Shown: positions 7,904 to 27,066 of the stretch, one piece after another | Position numbering within the stretch: the stretch's first letter is position 1 | Layout of the letters: every line of letters starts with the position of its first letter | Origin: a virus | Length of the DNA: 27,441 bases | Direction: 5' to 3' (one strand) | Virus record (IMG/VR): IMGVR_UViG_3300007735_000561 | Location: 1-27,441 of that record | The notes under the pieces: model-generated | Databases searched by the model: none | Told to the model about the DNA's origin: nothing | Seen by the model: only the letters and a program-made list of their open reading frames with translations | Position numbers and translations under genes: made by a program

Positions 7904-8060
7904 GCGTTTTGATTGGCAGCTTGAGGAATTGCTTTACTTCTTTGTCAGTCCTAACAATGATGCTGGCATTTTGAGCGTAACAAATAAAGTAGCGTCCATT
8001 CCAGTCCTTACCTGTTTCGACTGACATGTTGCCTGGCAGGTGCAGCGTTTCACGTTTCAT
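7725..8060 (-). CDS. Hypothetical protein (111 aa)
   Basis: Starts at an ATG overlapping the TGA of the upstream zinc-ribbon gene (ATGA), which supports the start and coupling. The first about 65 residues (DWNGRYFICYAQNASIIVR, then EVKQFLKLP) look like a small alpha/beta fold. The rest, rich in Gln, Ser and His, is read antisense to the plus-strand gene 7526-7903 and may be only an open tail. No motif recognised. Confidence 0.55.
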   Translation of the reverse strand: MKRETLHLPGNMSVETGKDWNGRYFICYAQNASIIVRTDKEVKQFLKLPIKTPSRDSLDSWFASLVAADQSKTQLHQPQSQALLTELLQTGFGPECHLDESDPNHQTRTVI

Positions 8061-8305
8061 TGCAACAGGATTAGCAGTTGTTTGCTCAAGCGTCGCCAGT
8101 TAATTGTGACCTTGCGGTCTTTCCACTTTACGCTCATTGGTGGCGCAACAATCTCTGCCATCTGAATGGTATTAAAGCGATGGTTGCAGCTTGGGCATTT
8201 CCGGCGACGGTGAAAATCGCCAGTTTCGCTGCGGCATGTTGTGACTACATCTGTAGTCAATGAACCGCAAGCTGGACATGGCGGTCCGATCCTATTAACT
8301 GACAT
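8057..8305 (-). CDS. Zinc-ribbon protein resembling the N-terminal part of NrdR
   Basis: 82 residues. The arrangement CPACGSLTTDVVTTCRSETG, then HRRRKCPSCNHRFNTIQ, follows the NrdR zinc ribbon: two CxxC pairs with an Arg-rich stretch before the second pair and an 'RF.T' after it. The ATP-cone that makes NrdR a nucleotide-sensing repressor is missing; a short basic tail (WKDRKVTINWRRLSKQ) is there instead. A DNA- or RNA-binding role, perhaps in transcription, is therefore an inference. It starts only 4 bases after the sigma factor stop and so probably shares its transcript, which suggests that both act on gene expression. Confidence 0.65.
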   Translation of the reverse strand: MSVNRIGPPCPACGSLTTDVVTTCRSETGDFHRRRKCPSCNHRFNTIQMAEIVAPPMSVKWKDRKVTINWRRLSKQLLILLQ

Positions 8306-8308
8306 GGT

Positions 8309-9235
8309 TTAACCCCAACCCCAGATCAAGCTGGAGCTGCAATTCTGTCGTTGAAACTTTCCCGGCGGTCCCTCTCGTAAGATCATTCGCAGTTCACGTT
8401 CTGCTACGTCTAACAGGCGTTTGATTGTGTCTTGCGCTGTGCCTACCTTCCGTGCAATTTCACGTTTTGAGCAAGGCTCCTCACCATCTAACCCGTAACG
8501 CATGATGATAATGTCTTTGTGCAAGGTATTCATGTGTGTTAGAGCTTGACGAACTGCTTCAATTTGAGTGTCTAAAAGTAAATCCTCCTCTGGTCTTTCT
8601 GTATCTGCTGGTATCAGATCAAGGATGGAACTGCCTTCCTCTCGCAGGGTTTTGACCTTAGCGTCAAGGCTTGTGGCATCCTGTGCGCTACGCATGTAAT
8701 CACGCAGGGTATGCGGTGCGATACCTGCATGAACGGCACAGTCTTCAATGCTTGGTTTTTCGCCGTGCTGTTCTTGGTAGTCCAGCATGTAAGAGCGAAC
8801 CTTACGAAGAATATCGTTAGCGCCTGTTGGCAATTTGATGATGCGATCTTGTACCTGAATTGACCGCATAATGCCTTGACGAATCCACCAGTAGGCATAT
8901 GTTGAAAATTTATACCCACGTTCGGGGTCGAATAATTCAACAGCGCGGATCAATCCAATGTTGCCTTCTTGTACAAGATCGTGCATGGTGACACGATTTG
9001 CCATGTGCTTATATTTTGAGGCGACACCAATGACAAGGCGCAAGTTGCCTTGAATCATTCGCTTCTTTGCCCGTGTCCCCACCTTGATAATCTTTAGTTC
9101 CTGTTTGGTGTATTGCTCCTTAAATCCGAGTGCCATCATCCTCTGGATGGCATGACCTAGTTCAATCTCCTCTGCTGCTGTTAGCAAAGGGATCTTACCG
9201 ATCTGATTTAGATAGTCGCGTAACGGGTCAGACAT
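8309..9235 (-). CDS. Phage-encoded sigma-70 family RNA polymerase sigma factor
   Basis: 308 residues from the ATG at 9235 (MSDPLRDYLNQIGK); a longer form could start at the ATG at 9271. Order: region 1.2 (1-34), region 2 (about 57-136, with GNLRLVIGVASKY, DLVQEGNIGLIRAVE, FSTYAYWWIRQ), region 3 (about 137-200) and region 4 (about 222-283). This is the primary or group 2 type, not an ECF or T4 gp55 type. It should direct host RNA polymerase to phage promoters. At the position of E. coli Thr440 in the -10 reading helix there is Met123. In region 4.2 the usual TRERIRQIE is replaced by AQDTIKRLL, changing the main -35 contacts. The C-terminal 20 residues (from GPPGKFQRQ) are an extra tail. An intrinsic terminator separates it from ssb. 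Confidence 0.93.
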   Translation of the reverse strand: MSDPLRDYLNQIGKIPLLTAAEEIELGHAIQRMMALGFKEQYTKQELKIIKVGTRAKKRMIQGNLRLVIGVASKYKHMANRVTMHDLVQEGNIGLIRAVELFDPERGYKFSTYAYWWIRQGIMRSIQVQDRIIKLPTGANDILRKVRSYMLDYQEQHGEKPSIEDCAVHAGIAPHTLRDYMRSAQDATSLDAKVKTLREEGSSILDLIPADTERPEEDLLLDTQIEAVRQALTHMNTLHKDIIIMRYGLDGEEPCSKREIARKVGTAQDTIKRLLDVAERELRMILREGPPGKFQRQNCSSSLIWGWG

Positions 9236-9243
9236 CTGATCAT

Positions 9244-9264
9244 AAAAAAGGGGGCAAAGCCCCC
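9244..9264 (-). terminator. Intrinsic terminator after ssb
   Basis: On the minus strand the transcript would form a perfect stem GGGGGC / GCCCCC with a UUU loop (9264-9250), followed directly by six U (9249-9244). It begins 7 bases after the ssb stop codon and ends 9 bases before the preferred sigma ATG. The longer sigma frame stays open across it. Confidence 0.85.
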
Positions 9265-9270
9265 CGGACA

Positions 9271-9603
9271 TTAGAACGGCATGTCGTCTTCAGCAACCCT
9301 AGGTCTGGGAGGCAACGTAAAATCGTTGACCGCCACATCCAAGGAAGCGCCAGGACTGCCATCCTTCCGCTCAAAGGTTTCGATGTAAGCCTGCCCAGTA
9401 ACGGTGACTTGAGCACCTTTGGTCAGGTATTCATCGACGACCTTAGCGCGTGGACCCCATACAGCGCAGCGAAGCACAGTGGTGTGATCTTCGCCTTTGA
9501 CCTTTTTGTTGACCATCAGGGTGAAGTTTGCAACCTCACGGTCACCAATCGTTTTAAGATCAGGGTCGGCGGCAAGGTTACCTACCGCAGTGATTTGGAG
9601 CAT
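9271..9603 (-). CDS. ssb: Single-stranded DNA-binding protein
   Basis: 110 residues, shorter than the roughly 150-180 of bacterial SSB but with the OB-fold pattern: MLQITAVGNLAADPDLK, VANFTLMVNKK, VLRCAVWGPRAKVVDEYL, KGAQVTVTGQAYIETF. It ends in DDMPF, the acidic tip that in bacterial SSB recruits partner proteins, after a very short linker. It would coat single-stranded DNA during replication and recombination. It overlaps the upstream small gene by 22 bases and is followed by a strong terminator. Neighbouring annealing-protein and RusA genes complete a recombination module. Confidence 0.93.
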   Translation of the reverse strand: MLQITAVGNLAADPDLKTIGDREVANFTLMVNKKVKGEDHTTVLRCAVWGPRAKVVDEYLTKGAQVTVTGQAYIETFERKDGSPGASLDVAVNDFTLPPRPRVAEDDMPF

Positions 9604-16103: not shown

Positions 16104-16274
16104 ATGATCGGATCTAGCACGAAAATTGCCATTGACGACACGATCCTCAAACGGCTTGAAGCCTTGATGCCTAGCTATCAGACCCGCAAACCTTATATCA
16201 ATATGTTACTTGATGAGGCTGCAACGCGTCTAGAAAACCAGCATCGTGCTCAAACAGATGAATGGGACAACTAA
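16104..16274 (+). CDS. Small ribbon-helix-helix-like regulator (56 aa)
   Basis: The start at 16104 (MIGSSTKIAIDDTILKRLEA) is chosen because upstream sequence is antisense to the nuclease. The pattern strand (TKIAIDD), helix (TILKRLEALMP), turn, helix (KPYINMLLDEAATRL) and the size fit an Arc/CopG-type ribbon-helix-helix DNA-binding protein. It would bind DNA as a dimer through the strand. It lies directly beside the inverted repeat at 16040-16075 and divergent to the early genes, the classic place for an early-gene regulator. The fold is inferred from pattern only. Confidence 0.6.
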   Translation: MIGSSTKIAIDDTILKRLEALMPSYQTRKPYINMLLDEAATRLENQHRAQTDEWDN

Positions 16275-16366: not shown

Positions 16367-17155
16367 ATGAAGGCTCCAGTAAAGTCAACCGCTTTTGCGG
16401 TTGCACCATATGACCTGCTTGACGCTGACTTAGATCCAAGAGCAATCGTTGTTTATTTATGGCTACACCGTTTTGGCTGGAACTCGCCCAAAGGCTGTTA
16501 TGCATCACTGCAGACAATCTCAGAGCGATCAGGTGTTACCAGGAAGATGGTACAACGCTCGCTGAGCACTCTAGTTGAAACAGGCTGGATTCAGGTAGAA
16601 AAACGCCCTGGTTTTACAGCCGTCTACCACGTCATCGTGGACCACCTAGGTCAAAAACGACCTAGGTCAAAACGAACCCAGGTCGAAATCGACCCAGGTC
16701 AAAAACGACCTAGGGGTCAGGTCAAAAATGACCTAGGGGGTCAGGTCGAAAACGACCTACAAACAAAAACCCAATACCAAGAACCCATAACAAAAACCCT
16801 TATAAAGCTGGAAAGCGAGTTTCCAGCGGTTTGTCCTGAGCCAAAGCAAAGGCGTAAAACCAAGGGGTCGGACGCGTTTGAAAAATTCTGGAAAACGTAC
16901 CTGTCTGCACCCGTCCGTGCTGCCAGTCAGTCAAAGCCAAAGGCACTGGCGCAGTGGCAGAAAACTGTCCGGTCCGAATCTGAGGCAACCTTGCTTGAGG
17001 CATTGGAAACTGAGATCAGCCATCAGCACCTTGCTGCAGGCACGTTTGTCAGCCCACTGCCTGATTGCTTCCGTTGGTTACGCGACGAGCGTTACCTCAC
17101 CGTCAACGACCGCCCGCTTAATACCACCAACTACATTCCCGACGTGATTCGATGA
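16367..17155 (+). CDS. Winged-helix replication initiator candidate (lambda O-like)
   Basis: 262 residues. Residues about 18-90 form an HTH_36-type winged helix (DPRAIVVYLWLHRFG, YASLQTISERSGVTRKMVQR, ETGWIQVEKRPG), the domain found at the N-terminus of many phage replication initiators. Residues about 94-131 are a charged linker encoded by six DNA iterons. The C-terminal part (about 160-250; SDAFEKFWKTYLSAPVRAAS, then CFRWLRDERYL) looks like the helical region that in such proteins contacts a helicase or loader. An initiator whose gene contains the origin is exactly the lambda O layout. No helicase or loader gene follows, so host DnaB recruitment is inferred. Ends in an ATGA overlap with the next gene. 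Confidence 0.7.
   Translation: MKAPVKSTAFAVAPYDLLDADLDPRAIVVYLWLHRFGWNSPKGCYASLQTISERSGVTRKMVQRSLSTLVETGWIQVEKRPGFTAVYHVIVDHLGQKRPRSKRTQVEIDPGQKRPRGQVKNDLGGQVENDLQTKTQYQEPITKTLIKLESEFPAVCPEPKQRRKTKGSDAFEKFWKTYLSAPVRAASQSKPKALAQWQKTVRSESEATLLEALETEISHQHLAAGTFVSPLPDCFRWLRDERYLTVNDRPLNTTNYIPDVIR
16648..16805 (+). repeat. Six iterons and A-rich tract: probable replication origin
   Basis: Six 16-base units of the form AGGTC-RAAAAY-GACCT begin at 16648, 16664, 16680, 16696, 16719 and 16743. The first four are exactly head-to-tail; the last two are preceded by 7- and 8-base spacers (AGGGGTC, AGGGGGTC). Each unit is itself an inverted repeat. Units 2 and 3 carry arm changes (ACCC, ACCC). Immediately after follows an A-rich stretch (16759-16805) with only one G on the plus strand, like a DNA unwinding element. 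All this lies inside the coding frame of the initiator candidate. Confidence 0.8.
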
Positions 17156-20455: not shown

Positions 20456-21801
20456 GCATCCTTGCTGCAGCTCCTACCGGCAGCGTGCTGCATCAGCTCA
20501 ATTACGGCAACGGTAACGTTGACATACCACAGCTTCTTGCTCACATCCGCTCAGACCTGCACCCAGGGCAACTTGCGTTTGTAGACGATACCAGCACTCA
20601 AATCCTTGGTATCTCCGCAGGCTACGGTGCCGGTAAAACCCGTGCGCTATGCGCTAAAGCAGTCATGCTCGCGGCTGCTAACCAAGGTTTCATCGGTGCA
20701 GTCATGGAACCTACAGGACCGTTGATTCGTGATATTTGGCAAAATGACTTTGAGCAATTCCTAGAAAATTACGAGATACCCTATACCTTTCGCGCATCAC
20801 CGTTGCCTGAGTACATGTTGCACCTGCCAGGCGGTGATACAAAAATCCTCTGTCGATCATTTGAAAACTGGTCACGCATCATCGGCTTGAATCTTGCATG
20901 GGTGTTAGCCGACGAGATTGATACCGTAACGCCCAGCATTGCTAACAAGGCGTTTCCTAAAATCCTCGGTCGCTTGCGTTCCGGTAACGTCCGGCAATTT
21001 GCGGCAGCATCCACACCAGAAGGCTTTCGCTGGATGTGGACTACCTTCGGCAGTGATGAGGCTAAAGCAAGACCAGACCGGCACCTAATCAAAATGCGGA
21101 CCGCTGATAATCCGCACCTGCCGCCAGACTTTATCGAACGATTACAAGCCAACTACGACCCAAGTTTGTTGCGTGCATACCTTGACGGGGAGTTTGTTAA
21201 CCTCACCACCGGGCAGGTTTATGACCGCTTTGATCGCAACAAACACTGCATTGCAAACACGCCAGATACAGCATCAGAATCACTCAGGGTTGGCATTGAC
21301 TTTAACGTCGGCAACATGTCTGCCATCATTGCCGTCAGACTTGGCAGCAGCCTGCTAATCATTGACGAGATCAGCGGCGCACACGACACTGATGCCTTAG
21401 CTCAAGAGATCATTAGGCGTTACCCAGACCGGCGCATTTACGCTTACCCAGATGCCAGCGGTGGCAATCGCAGTACCAACGCAACACAAACCGACATTGC
21501 CATCCTTGAGTCGTACGGCATGGCAAACCAATCACCACGCGCCAACCCACCCGTGCGTGATCGTGTAGCCGCAGTACAGGCTTTGCTAGAAAACGGCAAA
21601 GGTGAAGTCAGACTGCAAATCGCCCATACCTGCAAACGTCTGATCGAGTGCCTAGAGCTACAGTGCTACACCGAAAAGGGCGACCCCGATAAGGACGCAG
21701 GGTTTGACCACATGAACGACGCCTTAGGATACCTTGTCTGGCGTGAGTTTAACCCGCTGCACGCTAAGGCTGGCAAAGGCACCGGAATTAGGATATACTA
21801 A
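20452..21801 (+). CDS. terL: Terminase large subunit
   Basis: 449 residues from the GTG at 20452, which overlaps the TerS stop (GTGA); the TTG at 20446 is an alternative. ATPase: Walker A ISAGYGAGKT (54-63), Walker B VLADE (151-155), coupling-type region AAASTPEG (185-191). RNase H-like nuclease: GIDFNVG (Asp283), YAYPDASGG (Asp334) and DHMNDALGY (Asp423). The enzyme pumps DNA into the prohead and cuts it. Length and motif order are normal for the terminase_6C group. Confidence 0.95.
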   Translation: MSILAAAPTGSVLHQLNYGNGNVDIPQLLAHIRSDLHPGQLAFVDDTSTQILGISAGYGAGKTRALCAKAVMLAAANQGFIGAVMEPTGPLIRDIWQNDFEQFLENYEIPYTFRASPLPEYMLHLPGGDTKILCRSFENWSRIIGLNLAWVLADEIDTVTPSIANKAFPKILGRLRSGNVRQFAAASTPEGFRWMWTTFGSDEAKARPDRHLIKMRTADNPHLPPDFIERLQANYDPSLLRAYLDGEFVNLTTGQVYDRFDRNKHCIANTPDTASESLRVGIDFNVGNMSAIIAVRLGSSLLIIDEISGAHDTDALAQEIIRRYPDRRIYAYPDASGGNRSTNATQTDIAILESYGMANQSPRANPPVRDRVAAVQALLENGKGEVRLQIAHTCKRLIECLELQCYTEKGDPDKDAGFDHMNDALGYLVWREFNPLHAKAGKGTGIRIY

Positions 21802-21826: not shown

Positions 21827-22144
21827 ATGCTCGTCGGTCAAGAACTACTCGCCAAAGTCAAAGAGCTTGGTGACCTTAACAAATCCGATCTCGTTCGTGA
21901 GTGTGGCTACGTCAAAGGTGACAAACTTTGTTTCACCCAGTTTTACGAAGCACTCCTCGATGCCAAGGGTCTGCAAATGAAGCCTACGCTTAAGCGTGGT
22001 CGTCATTTGACCTACAAAACCAAAGTTCAGTTCAACGGCAAACTTTCCATTGGCGAAAATTACGTCAAGGAAATGGGCTTCCAGCCTGGTGATGAATTTG
22101 AGATCAAAATTGGTCGCAAATCTGTTACCCTCGCTGCTGTCTAA
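21827..22144 (+). CDS. Cyanobacterial-type AbrB (cyAbrB) transcription regulator
   Basis: 105 residues. The N-terminal part (QELLAKVKELGDLNKSDLVR, CGYVKGDKLCFTQFYEALLD) and C-terminal AbrB swapped-hairpin domain (KVQFNGKLSIGENYVKEMG, PGDEFEIKIGRKSVTL) have the order of the cyAbrB family, which is typical of cyanobacteria and, unlike Bacillus AbrB, has the DNA-binding domain at the C-terminus. Known host members act as abundant DNA-binding regulators of carbon and nitrogen genes. Here it sits between terL and portal, so it is expected to be expressed late. It could redirect host transcription, replace a host nucleoid protein or control lysogeny; sequence alone cannot decide. Confidence 0.85.
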   Translation: MLVGQELLAKVKELGDLNKSDLVRECGYVKGDKLCFTQFYEALLDAKGLQMKPTLKRGRHLTYKTKVQFNGKLSIGENYVKEMGFQPGDEFEIKIGRKSVTLAAV

Positions 22145-26233: not shown

Positions 26234-26287
26234 GTGCCCTTGGGCCCAATTACCTATACACTTTGGCGGTAAACCCTACGGGTCACA

Positions 26288-26983
26288 ATGTCTGAAGAAC
26301 AACTGCAGGAAGCTACGCCGACTGCCAGCAACGATGAACTTGAAGCTCTCAAGCGGAGCATCGAAGGTTTAGAGCGCAAAAACTTTGAGCTGATTGGCAA
26401 ACTCAAGGAACAAAAGGAAAAGGCCGTCTCTGTTCCTGATGGCGTTGATGTAAAAGAACTCCTTGAGTTCAAACGCAAAAAGGAACAAGAGGAACTGGAA
26501 TCAAAGGGCAAATACGACGAAGCCCTGAAACAGTACGCTCAGCAGTTCCAAGTACGCGAAGAGGATTACAAGAAGCGTATTGCCGAGTTGGAGTCAAAAC
26601 TGACGGTCAACCAACTTGATAATCGCGTGGTTGCAATCCTTGCCGAGCAGGGTGCCCATAACCCGCATGATGCACTGCGTCTGGTGCGCGATCAACTGAA
26701 ACTGGACGAAAACGGAAACCCCGTAGCTGTTGACGGCTACAACGAAATCCCGATGGATCAGTGGGTTGAGCGCCTGAAAGCCGATCGTGGCTATCTGTTC
26801 AAGGCTCCGACGATTAAAGGTTCTGGTGCGCCTATCGGCATCAAAACCACATCGTCCGACATTCCGGCTGGCACTAAAAATCCGTTTACCAAGGAGTATT
26901 TCAACTTGACCGAGCAATCGCGGCTGTACCGCACTGATCGTGATCTGTACGAACGCTTGAAGGCTGCCGCCAACAATGCTTAA
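26288..26983 (+). CDS. Capsid scaffolding protein
   Basis: 231 residues, acidic and Lys-rich, with a long coiled coil (about 14-115: DELEALKRSIEGLERKNFEL, ELLEFKRKKEQEELESKGKY, REEDYKKRIAELESKL) and a more compact C-terminal part that would bind the capsid protein (NPFTKEYFNLTEQSRLYRTD). It lies directly before the major capsid gene, the normal place. It should guide prohead assembly and then leave. A possible promoter box TATACA lies at 26255-26260. Confidence 0.85.
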   Translation: MSEEQLQEATPTASNDELEALKRSIEGLERKNFELIGKLKEQKEKAVSVPDGVDVKELLEFKRKKEQEELESKGKYDEALKQYAQQFQVREEDYKKRIAELESKLTVNQLDNRVVAILAEQGAHNPHDALRLVRDQLKLDENGNPVAVDGYNEIPMDQWVERLKADRGYLFKAPTIKGSGAPIGIKTTSSDIPAGTKNPFTKEYFNLTEQSRLYRTDRDLYERLKAAANNA

Positions 26984-27054
26984 TATGTAATCGCTAGACG
27001 TAATTGGCTACGCCGGTTCGTCATTGGGTTACGCCCGCACCGTAAAACCATTTT

Positions 27055-27066
27055 GGAGATTTCACC
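27055..27066 (+). promoter_or_regulatory. Ribosome binding site of the capsid gene
   Basis: GGAG at 27055-27058 stands 8 bases before the GTG start at 27067. This clear Shine-Dalgarno, rare in this window, fits the high expression expected of the capsid protein and supports the GTG start. Confidence 0.7.

Follow-up and report, generated by a model that had tools for sequence, protein, structure and literature searches.

The window analysed here is the whole 27,441-base IMG/VR virus record IMGVR_UViG_3300007735_000561, a fragment of a KBS2A-like cyanosiphovirus whose gene order resembles that of Cyanophage KBS-S-2A. The genes around its sigma gene are of phage type and encode a single-strand DNA-binding protein (ssb), a Sak-like annealing protein, RusA, terminase, portal, and head and tail proteins. 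The sigma locus contains the following features.

8057-8305, minus strand: gene for an NrdR-like zinc ribbon protein (Pfam PF22811), next downstream of sigma
8309-9235, minus strand: phage sigma-70 gene, 308 aa, regions 1.2 to 4; Gln120 corresponds to Q437 and Met123 to T440
8316-8339, minus strand: hairpin CAGCUCCAG-CUUGAU-CUGGGGUUG inside the last sigma codons, just 5' of the NrdR-like gene
9249-9265, minus strand: intrinsic terminator stem-loop GGGGGG-CTTTG-CCCCC, its T run extending to 9244, shortly before the sigma ATG
9268-9296, minus strand: probable promoter of the sigma gene itself, TTGCTG (9296-9291), 17 nt, TAATGT (9273-9268)
9271-9603, minus strand: ssb gene (phrog_44), upstream of sigma

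The minus-strand reading frame from 9235 to 8309 encodes 308 residues, and the sequence-only reading was right to describe it as a complete sigma-70 gene with regions 1.2 to 4; the plus-strand frame over 8309-9235 has many stops. A longer open reading frame begins at 9271, but translation more probably starts with the ATG at 9235, since the longer frame crosses both the overlap with the ssb stop and the hairpin of the terminator and since six relatives (L010, L011, L014, L016, L017 and L026) have a stop codon in the stretch equivalent to 9271-9235. Regions 1.2, 2 and 3 match Pfam above the curated cut-offs, which places the protein in the sigma-70 family, and region 4 matches below its cut-off (E = 3e-4, 20.7 bits against 24.1). 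The NCBIfam models align the protein through residue 295 of the longer form, and the predicted model has region 4 helices at residues 237-247, 257-264 and 268-288. Region 1.2 starts at residue 3 of the 308-residue form and region 1.1 is absent, as in group 2 factors. The best NCBIfam model is TIGR02997, the cyanobacterial RpoD/SigA family (255.1 bits, E = 8e-76), although the score lies below that family's curated cut-off of 384.5 bits. It matches phrog_351 (E = 2.5e-67), and the solved chains nearest to it are cyanobacterial SigA proteins. The predicted structure (pLDDT 78.5, 29 sequences) has the helices expected for regions 1.2 to 4, a disordered tail from residue 293, and Syn7942 SigA as its best PDB match (E = 1.9e-14).

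In a syntenic set of 13 genomes that includes the window, with genes called by a purpose-made codon score, ssb lies upstream of sigma in all 13 and the gap length alone differs, which rules out a different upstream gene in some of the relatives. The element between the two genes combines a G-C stem, a short loop and a T run, as an intrinsic terminator does; it ranks near the top of 34 terminator-like sites (22.1 expected) and folds at -13.4 kcal/mol (z = -1.95). Every one of the 19 distinct upstream sequences of the clade has the stem and T run, with loops that vary in length and sequence. By eye, the same terminator was not seen before 11 of 12 sigma genes outside the clade, the twelfth having too short an upstream stretch to judge, and none was seen before those of S-CBS3, KBS2A, S-CBS1 and S-LBS1. 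Directly 5' of the terminator, a TAnnnT is found in 19 of the 19 clade sequences, with a TTG at a spacer of exactly 17 in 16. In 12 of the 19, part of this TAnnnT comes from the ssb stop codon, with which the -10 overlaps. In six sequences the stretch is non-coding; there, TTGCAG and TACCCT are identical in 6/6, whereas the first nine columns of the spacer all vary. The predicted start lies near 9261, within the G run of the terminator stem, and would leave two or three of the stem Gs. In folding calculations, the read-through RNA reaches -12.4 to -14.5 kcal/mol and the predicted RNA from this start -2.1 to -7.5 kcal/mol. We consider that the sigma gene probably has a promoter starting inside the terminator stem, and, because of that position, its own transcripts would be expected to escape termination. 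The terminator would then separate the sigma gene from the replication operon, and the gene itself would be transcribed from a promoter of early type. The early-type promoters of the window phage look ordinary, TTGnnn-17-TAnnnT; a common early class at divergent promoters is an impression gained by eye and does not enter the evidence.

The hairpin might alternatively belong to the 5' leader of the sigma mRNA and act on translation or stability in place of terminating read-through. It closely precedes the ATG, without a Shine-Dalgarno box in the interval, and other short hairpins precede the scaffold and capsid starts; however, those hairpins have no T run, whereas the perfect G-C stem and T-rich run of all 19 clade sequences have the textbook form of a terminator. 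We consider the leader reading doubtful, if still worth keeping in mind, and prefer the terminator with its overlapping promoter, which could provide a simple and testable idea for the timing of the gene.

Other elements of the window were noted in the course of this work. On the plus strand, short hairpins with TGC or TAC loops lie immediately 5' of the scaffold and capsid start codons (26260-26290 and 27030-27066), and by eye their stem bases covary in pairs between relatives. The terminator scan also brought up, among its terminator-like rows, a region of the replication-protein gene (16655-16750, minus strand) in which repeats of TTTTTGACCT occur together with inverted AGGTC copies and which could represent iterons. 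Between the divergent early operons, 16146-16274 (plus strand) encodes a small protein that resembles a ribbon-helix-helix repressor by eye and has no Pfam match. An Rfam search of the window gave no match.

The hairpin at the 3' end of the sigma gene is formed by coding sequence. Synonymous change in the last 18 codons is reduced (pS 0.27 versus about 0.7 elsewhere in the gene), and the series AGC TCC AGC TTG A-C TGG GG- TGG is almost invariant in the 19 sequences compared and able to fold; in the window it folds at -16.2 kcal/mol (z = -2.32). When the viral collection was scanned for the exact pattern, 37 stretches matched, and in all nine that were opened the match lies in the 3' end of this sigma gene. 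Any part that the hairpin plays in translation of the downstream gene would be guesswork.

In a tree of 59 rows, 29 of the 30 phage sequences form a group separate from every host row, with support of 88/96, which is below the starred level of the tree tool, and the clade of the window has support of 100/100. The exception is the S-LBS1 sigma, which falls outside the phage group on a long branch. The window gene therefore belongs to a cyanosiphovirus sigma lineage that groups apart from host sigmas. Constraint within the protein is uneven. Among 12 clade rows, mean pairwise identity is 0.93 in regions 1.2 and 2.3, 0.88 in 2.4, 0.45 in region 4.2 and 0.36 in its recognition helix; that helix has an identity of 0.62 among host rows and 0.69 among eight other phage factors, most of which are canonical there. 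The dN/dS ratio is about 0.06 in region 2 and about 0.30 in region 4.2 (14 sequences), both being rough values since synonymous sites are near saturation. A ratio of 0.30 argues that region 4.2 is still under constraint. Judged from these rates, the -35-reading helix evolves fast in the clade and appears to be its loosest DNA-reading part, yet not a free one. As a separate observation, the contigs L149 and L342 carry a late module of the window type (terL 88% in L149) together with a sigma of canonical residues (35%), an arrangement that looks like a natural swap of sigma type on one late module.

The sequence-only reading had aligned the factor by hand and claimed that Q437 is kept (Gln120), that T440 is replaced by Met, and that R584, E585 and R588 are replaced by Gln, Asp and Lys. 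Alignment with E. coli K-12 RpoD from NC_000913 confirmed each of these assignments and revealed two further changes, H455 to Gly and Q589 to Arg. It had also pointed out that these residues matter in E. coli, which agrees with the available text of a published study in which mutants at T440, R584, E585 and R588 had altered base preference, with shifts in the reading of -12, -33 and -31 (PMC2613000). The inference of an altered specificity presupposed that cyanobacterial group 2 factors do not share the changes, and they do not: among the best 80 of at least 591 cyanobacterial sigmas, a sample that is consequently close to the query, T440 is retained in 80/80, with no Met at this position, R584 is present in 78/80, E or D at 585 in 80/80, and R588 in 80/80. 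In three host genomes, His455, Glu458, Glu/Asp585 and Arg588 occur in 17 of 17 sigmas and Arg584 in 16; these sigmas were found with a pattern requiring Thr440 and are informative for the other residues only. The residue changes are real, and they are phage-specific in comparison with the sampled host factors.

Within the clade of the window, Met440 is nearly fixed. It is present in 12 of 12 clade rows of our alignment A1, the window included. Met440 is favoured in the 30 virus relatives (60 to 81% identity) that were found with six patterns, because one of these patterns was WWIRQGIM; a sample linked through Sak is free of this bias, and of its 30 loci, 26 have the sigma gene and 25 are readable, with Met at residue 440 in 24 and Ile in one. 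Residues 583-589 vary among close relatives (AQDTIKR, AQDTTAR, AQDTTKR, AQDATKR, AQDNTKR, HRESVRK, HKEAARK, HRETVRK, GKEVTRQ and GRDTTSK), and the replacements at 584, 585 and 588 therefore do not characterise the clade as a whole. Across phages at large, residue 440 is Met, Ile, Thr, Gly, Gln, Ser, Asn, Ala or Cys, and the sigma tree requires at least three switches between Thr and another state. Separately, a search of 292 genomes of the cyanobacterial phylum gave six DNA pattern matches with Met at 440 (L226-L231), candidates by pattern alone, which read WWIRQTIM in five cases and WWIRQLQM in one.

A comparison of the upstream regions of the 13 genomes revealed a recurrent element about 30 nt 5' of an AbrB-like gene, with TAnnnT mostly in the form GCTATACT. 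The features of this operon in the window are as follows.

21791-21800, plus strand: -10 region of the late promoter, GGATATACTA, with the hexamer TATACT at 21794-21799
21827-22144, plus strand: gene for an AbrB-like regulator (Pfam PF14250), first behind the late promoter
22172: portal gene (phrog_145), following the AbrB-like gene

The TAnnnT occupies a fixed spot in 29 of 29 distinct sequences and in 64 of 64 of a wider set; as a control in the latter, eleven other 7-base windows were scored, of which one overlapping the site reached 48 and the remaining ten 0 to 11. In the widest set it was found in 99 of 109 by script and in the other 10, which are anchored on a different query start, by eye. 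A set of 17 non-redundant late promoters shows no variation at -12, -11 and -7; 16 of them have G at -14, and 11 have C at -13. Position -33, the proper distance, is likewise occupied by G in 16 of the 17, so a weak -35 may exist; most of these conserved -33 G bases fall within terL codons or terminator stems. In three genomes (G010, G008 and G002), a terminator-like hairpin noted by eye ends right before the late promoter, and its T run forms the promoter spacer. A position-weight scan of the 13 genomes gave 60 matches, 12 of them intergenic near a start, and 20 column-permuted matrices gave 104 to 353 matches with 1 to 16 intergenic near a start. With nearly one site per genome and similar numbers from the permuted matrices, we rejected GCTATACT as the motif of a many-site regulon and regard it as one promoter. 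The intergenic regions yielded no other recurrent class of motif, and no shared promoter was found upstream of the terS or capsid genes.

Both the sigma gene and the late promoter could be read in 26 phage contigs, some of them closely related to each other and hence not to be counted as independent. This linked set omits six sigma-bearing contigs that yielded no AbrB upstream region; 20 of 40 contigs had no sigma match, and several of these are fragments. Residue 440 in the linked set is Met in 10 contigs, Thr and Gly in 7 each, and Ile and Gln in 1 each, and region 4.2 ranges from canonical to scrambled, yet position -12 of the late promoter is T in all 26 (24 by script and 2 by eye). Four of them (G338, G340, G323 and G341) have Thr440, His455, Glu458, Arg584, Glu585, Arg588 and Gln589 and nevertheless carry the late element, GGCTATATT or GGCTATACT, as others do. 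Two specific pairings were considered and ruled out, namely Met440 with C at -12, where T is constant, and Q589R/K with G at -34, where phages with Q589 and a canonical region 4.2 show the same TGG.

The sequence-only reading had concluded that Met440 and the changed residues of region 4.2 probably give the factor a promoter class of its own, differing at -12 and -35. The residues are indeed unlike those of all sampled host factors, the region 4.2 helix is divergent, and the E. coli mutants cited above lend the idea plausibility. However, it was not borne out: the T at -12 persists whatever residue 440 is, phages with canonical sigmas share the late promoter, the residues at 584, 585 and 588 vary even between close relatives, and the intergenic regions offer no second recurrent motif class. 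The constancy of -12 bears on the factor only if the late promoter is its target. Since the same late promoter accompanies canonical sigmas, either the residue changes leave reading unaltered or the promoter belongs to host SigA, which may read it; either alternative would weaken the inference of a new promoter class, and neither would disprove it. We regard a separate class as unlikely, and the earlier interpretation is partly supported, in that the residue changes are upheld and the new specificity is not. It is similarly improbable that the factor reads host SigA promoters and supplements or replaces the host sigma, for instance where the latter is limiting or blocked, because although its region 2 is close to host factors and the early-type phage promoters are ordinary, its -35 helix is variable and lacks the host's residues, and a duplicate SigA function needs no separate old lineage.

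The reading that we prefer, and to which we assign a probability of about one half as a whole, is that of a working, group-2-like factor from an old, phage-specific cyanosiphovirus lineage. Its most likely action is to bind the core polymerase of the host and direct it to the phage late genes. Regions 1.2 to 2.4, which would bind the core and read the -10, are under strong constraint; the -10 box that the factor recognises is most likely an ordinary TAnnnT, aided by the G at -14, and Met440 probably does not redirect the reading of -12. Because the -35 helix is weakly constrained, little dependence on a -35 box is to be expected. The terminator and the gene's own promoter, as described above, belong to this reading. 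A bolder version, which we think improbable, holds that the clade sigma gave up -35 reading in favour of -10-only late promoters, that terminator and promoter form a switch, and that the 3' hairpin couples the translation of the next gene to sigma synthesis. If it were true, the same few bases would end incoming read-through and yet pass the sigma gene's own transcripts.

Sigma genes of this kind are already known in cyanosiphoviruses. The sequence-only reading had called a complete sigma-70 unusual in a phage; such a gene is indeed present, but S-CBS1, S-CBS3, KBS2A, S-LBS1 and P-SS2 carry such genes as well. The genome note of KBS2A names the sigma gene and contains no promoter work on it (PMC3751600), and the S-LBS1 paper names its sigma gene, with no promoter work on it in the sections available (PMC6157547). 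According to the available parts of PMC2784084, P-SS2 carries one group 2 and one group 3 factor, and its authors thought that the group 2 factor reads canonical promoters. A literature search, largely of papers open without subscription, gave no report of promoter mapping for a cyanosiphovirus sigma. These genes occur in a large, mostly uncultured cyanophage group, and a report on what they read was not found in that search. The phages themselves form a natural test set, in which one late promoter is combined with sigmas that have Thr, Met, Ile, Gly or Gln at 440 and canonical or scrambled -35 helices. Because the late promoter is shared and the sigmas vary, the role of these residues in promoter choice outside E. 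coli can be asked directly.

The sigmas of S-CBS3 (rpsD4), KBS2A, S-CBS1 and S-LBS1 contain regions 1.2 to 4, as that of the window does, with identities to it of 42.9%, 37.0%, 37.3% and 32.6%, respectively, and ORF 113 of P-SS2 is a group 2 sigma of the same cyanosiphovirus kind. In KBS2A and S-CBS3, the gene stands at the end of the leftward replication module, as in the window. The clade of the window differs from the four isolates compared in having Met440 and Gly455, whereas the isolates have Ser, Thr, Cys and Ser at 440. The cyanobacterial group 2 factors (SigB to SigE type) have the same overall domain order and are 33 to 41% identical to the window sigma across most of its length, but, unlike the window sigma, they keep T440, H455, E458, R584 and R588 almost without exception. 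E. coli RpoS offers a parallel in that its T440 position is also altered, to Glu, and RpoS nevertheless still reads an ordinary -10, a further point against deriving a new promoter class from Met440; moreover, the late promoter GCTATACT resembles the extended -10 of sigma-S. In contrast to the window sigma, RpoS keeps R584, E585, R588, Q589 and His455 and has Lys at 458. Phage sigmas that turn the host polymerase to late genes are described in phiEco32 (gp36) and phage 7-11 (gp47). The available part of PMC8948821 reports that gp36 reads single-element promoters, which is explained by its missing region 4 and gives a precedent for such reading by a phage sigma. Lacking region 4, gp36 has the promoter tAATGTAtA in that text, whereas the window sigma appears to retain region 4 and the late -10 of the window is an ordinary TAnnnT.
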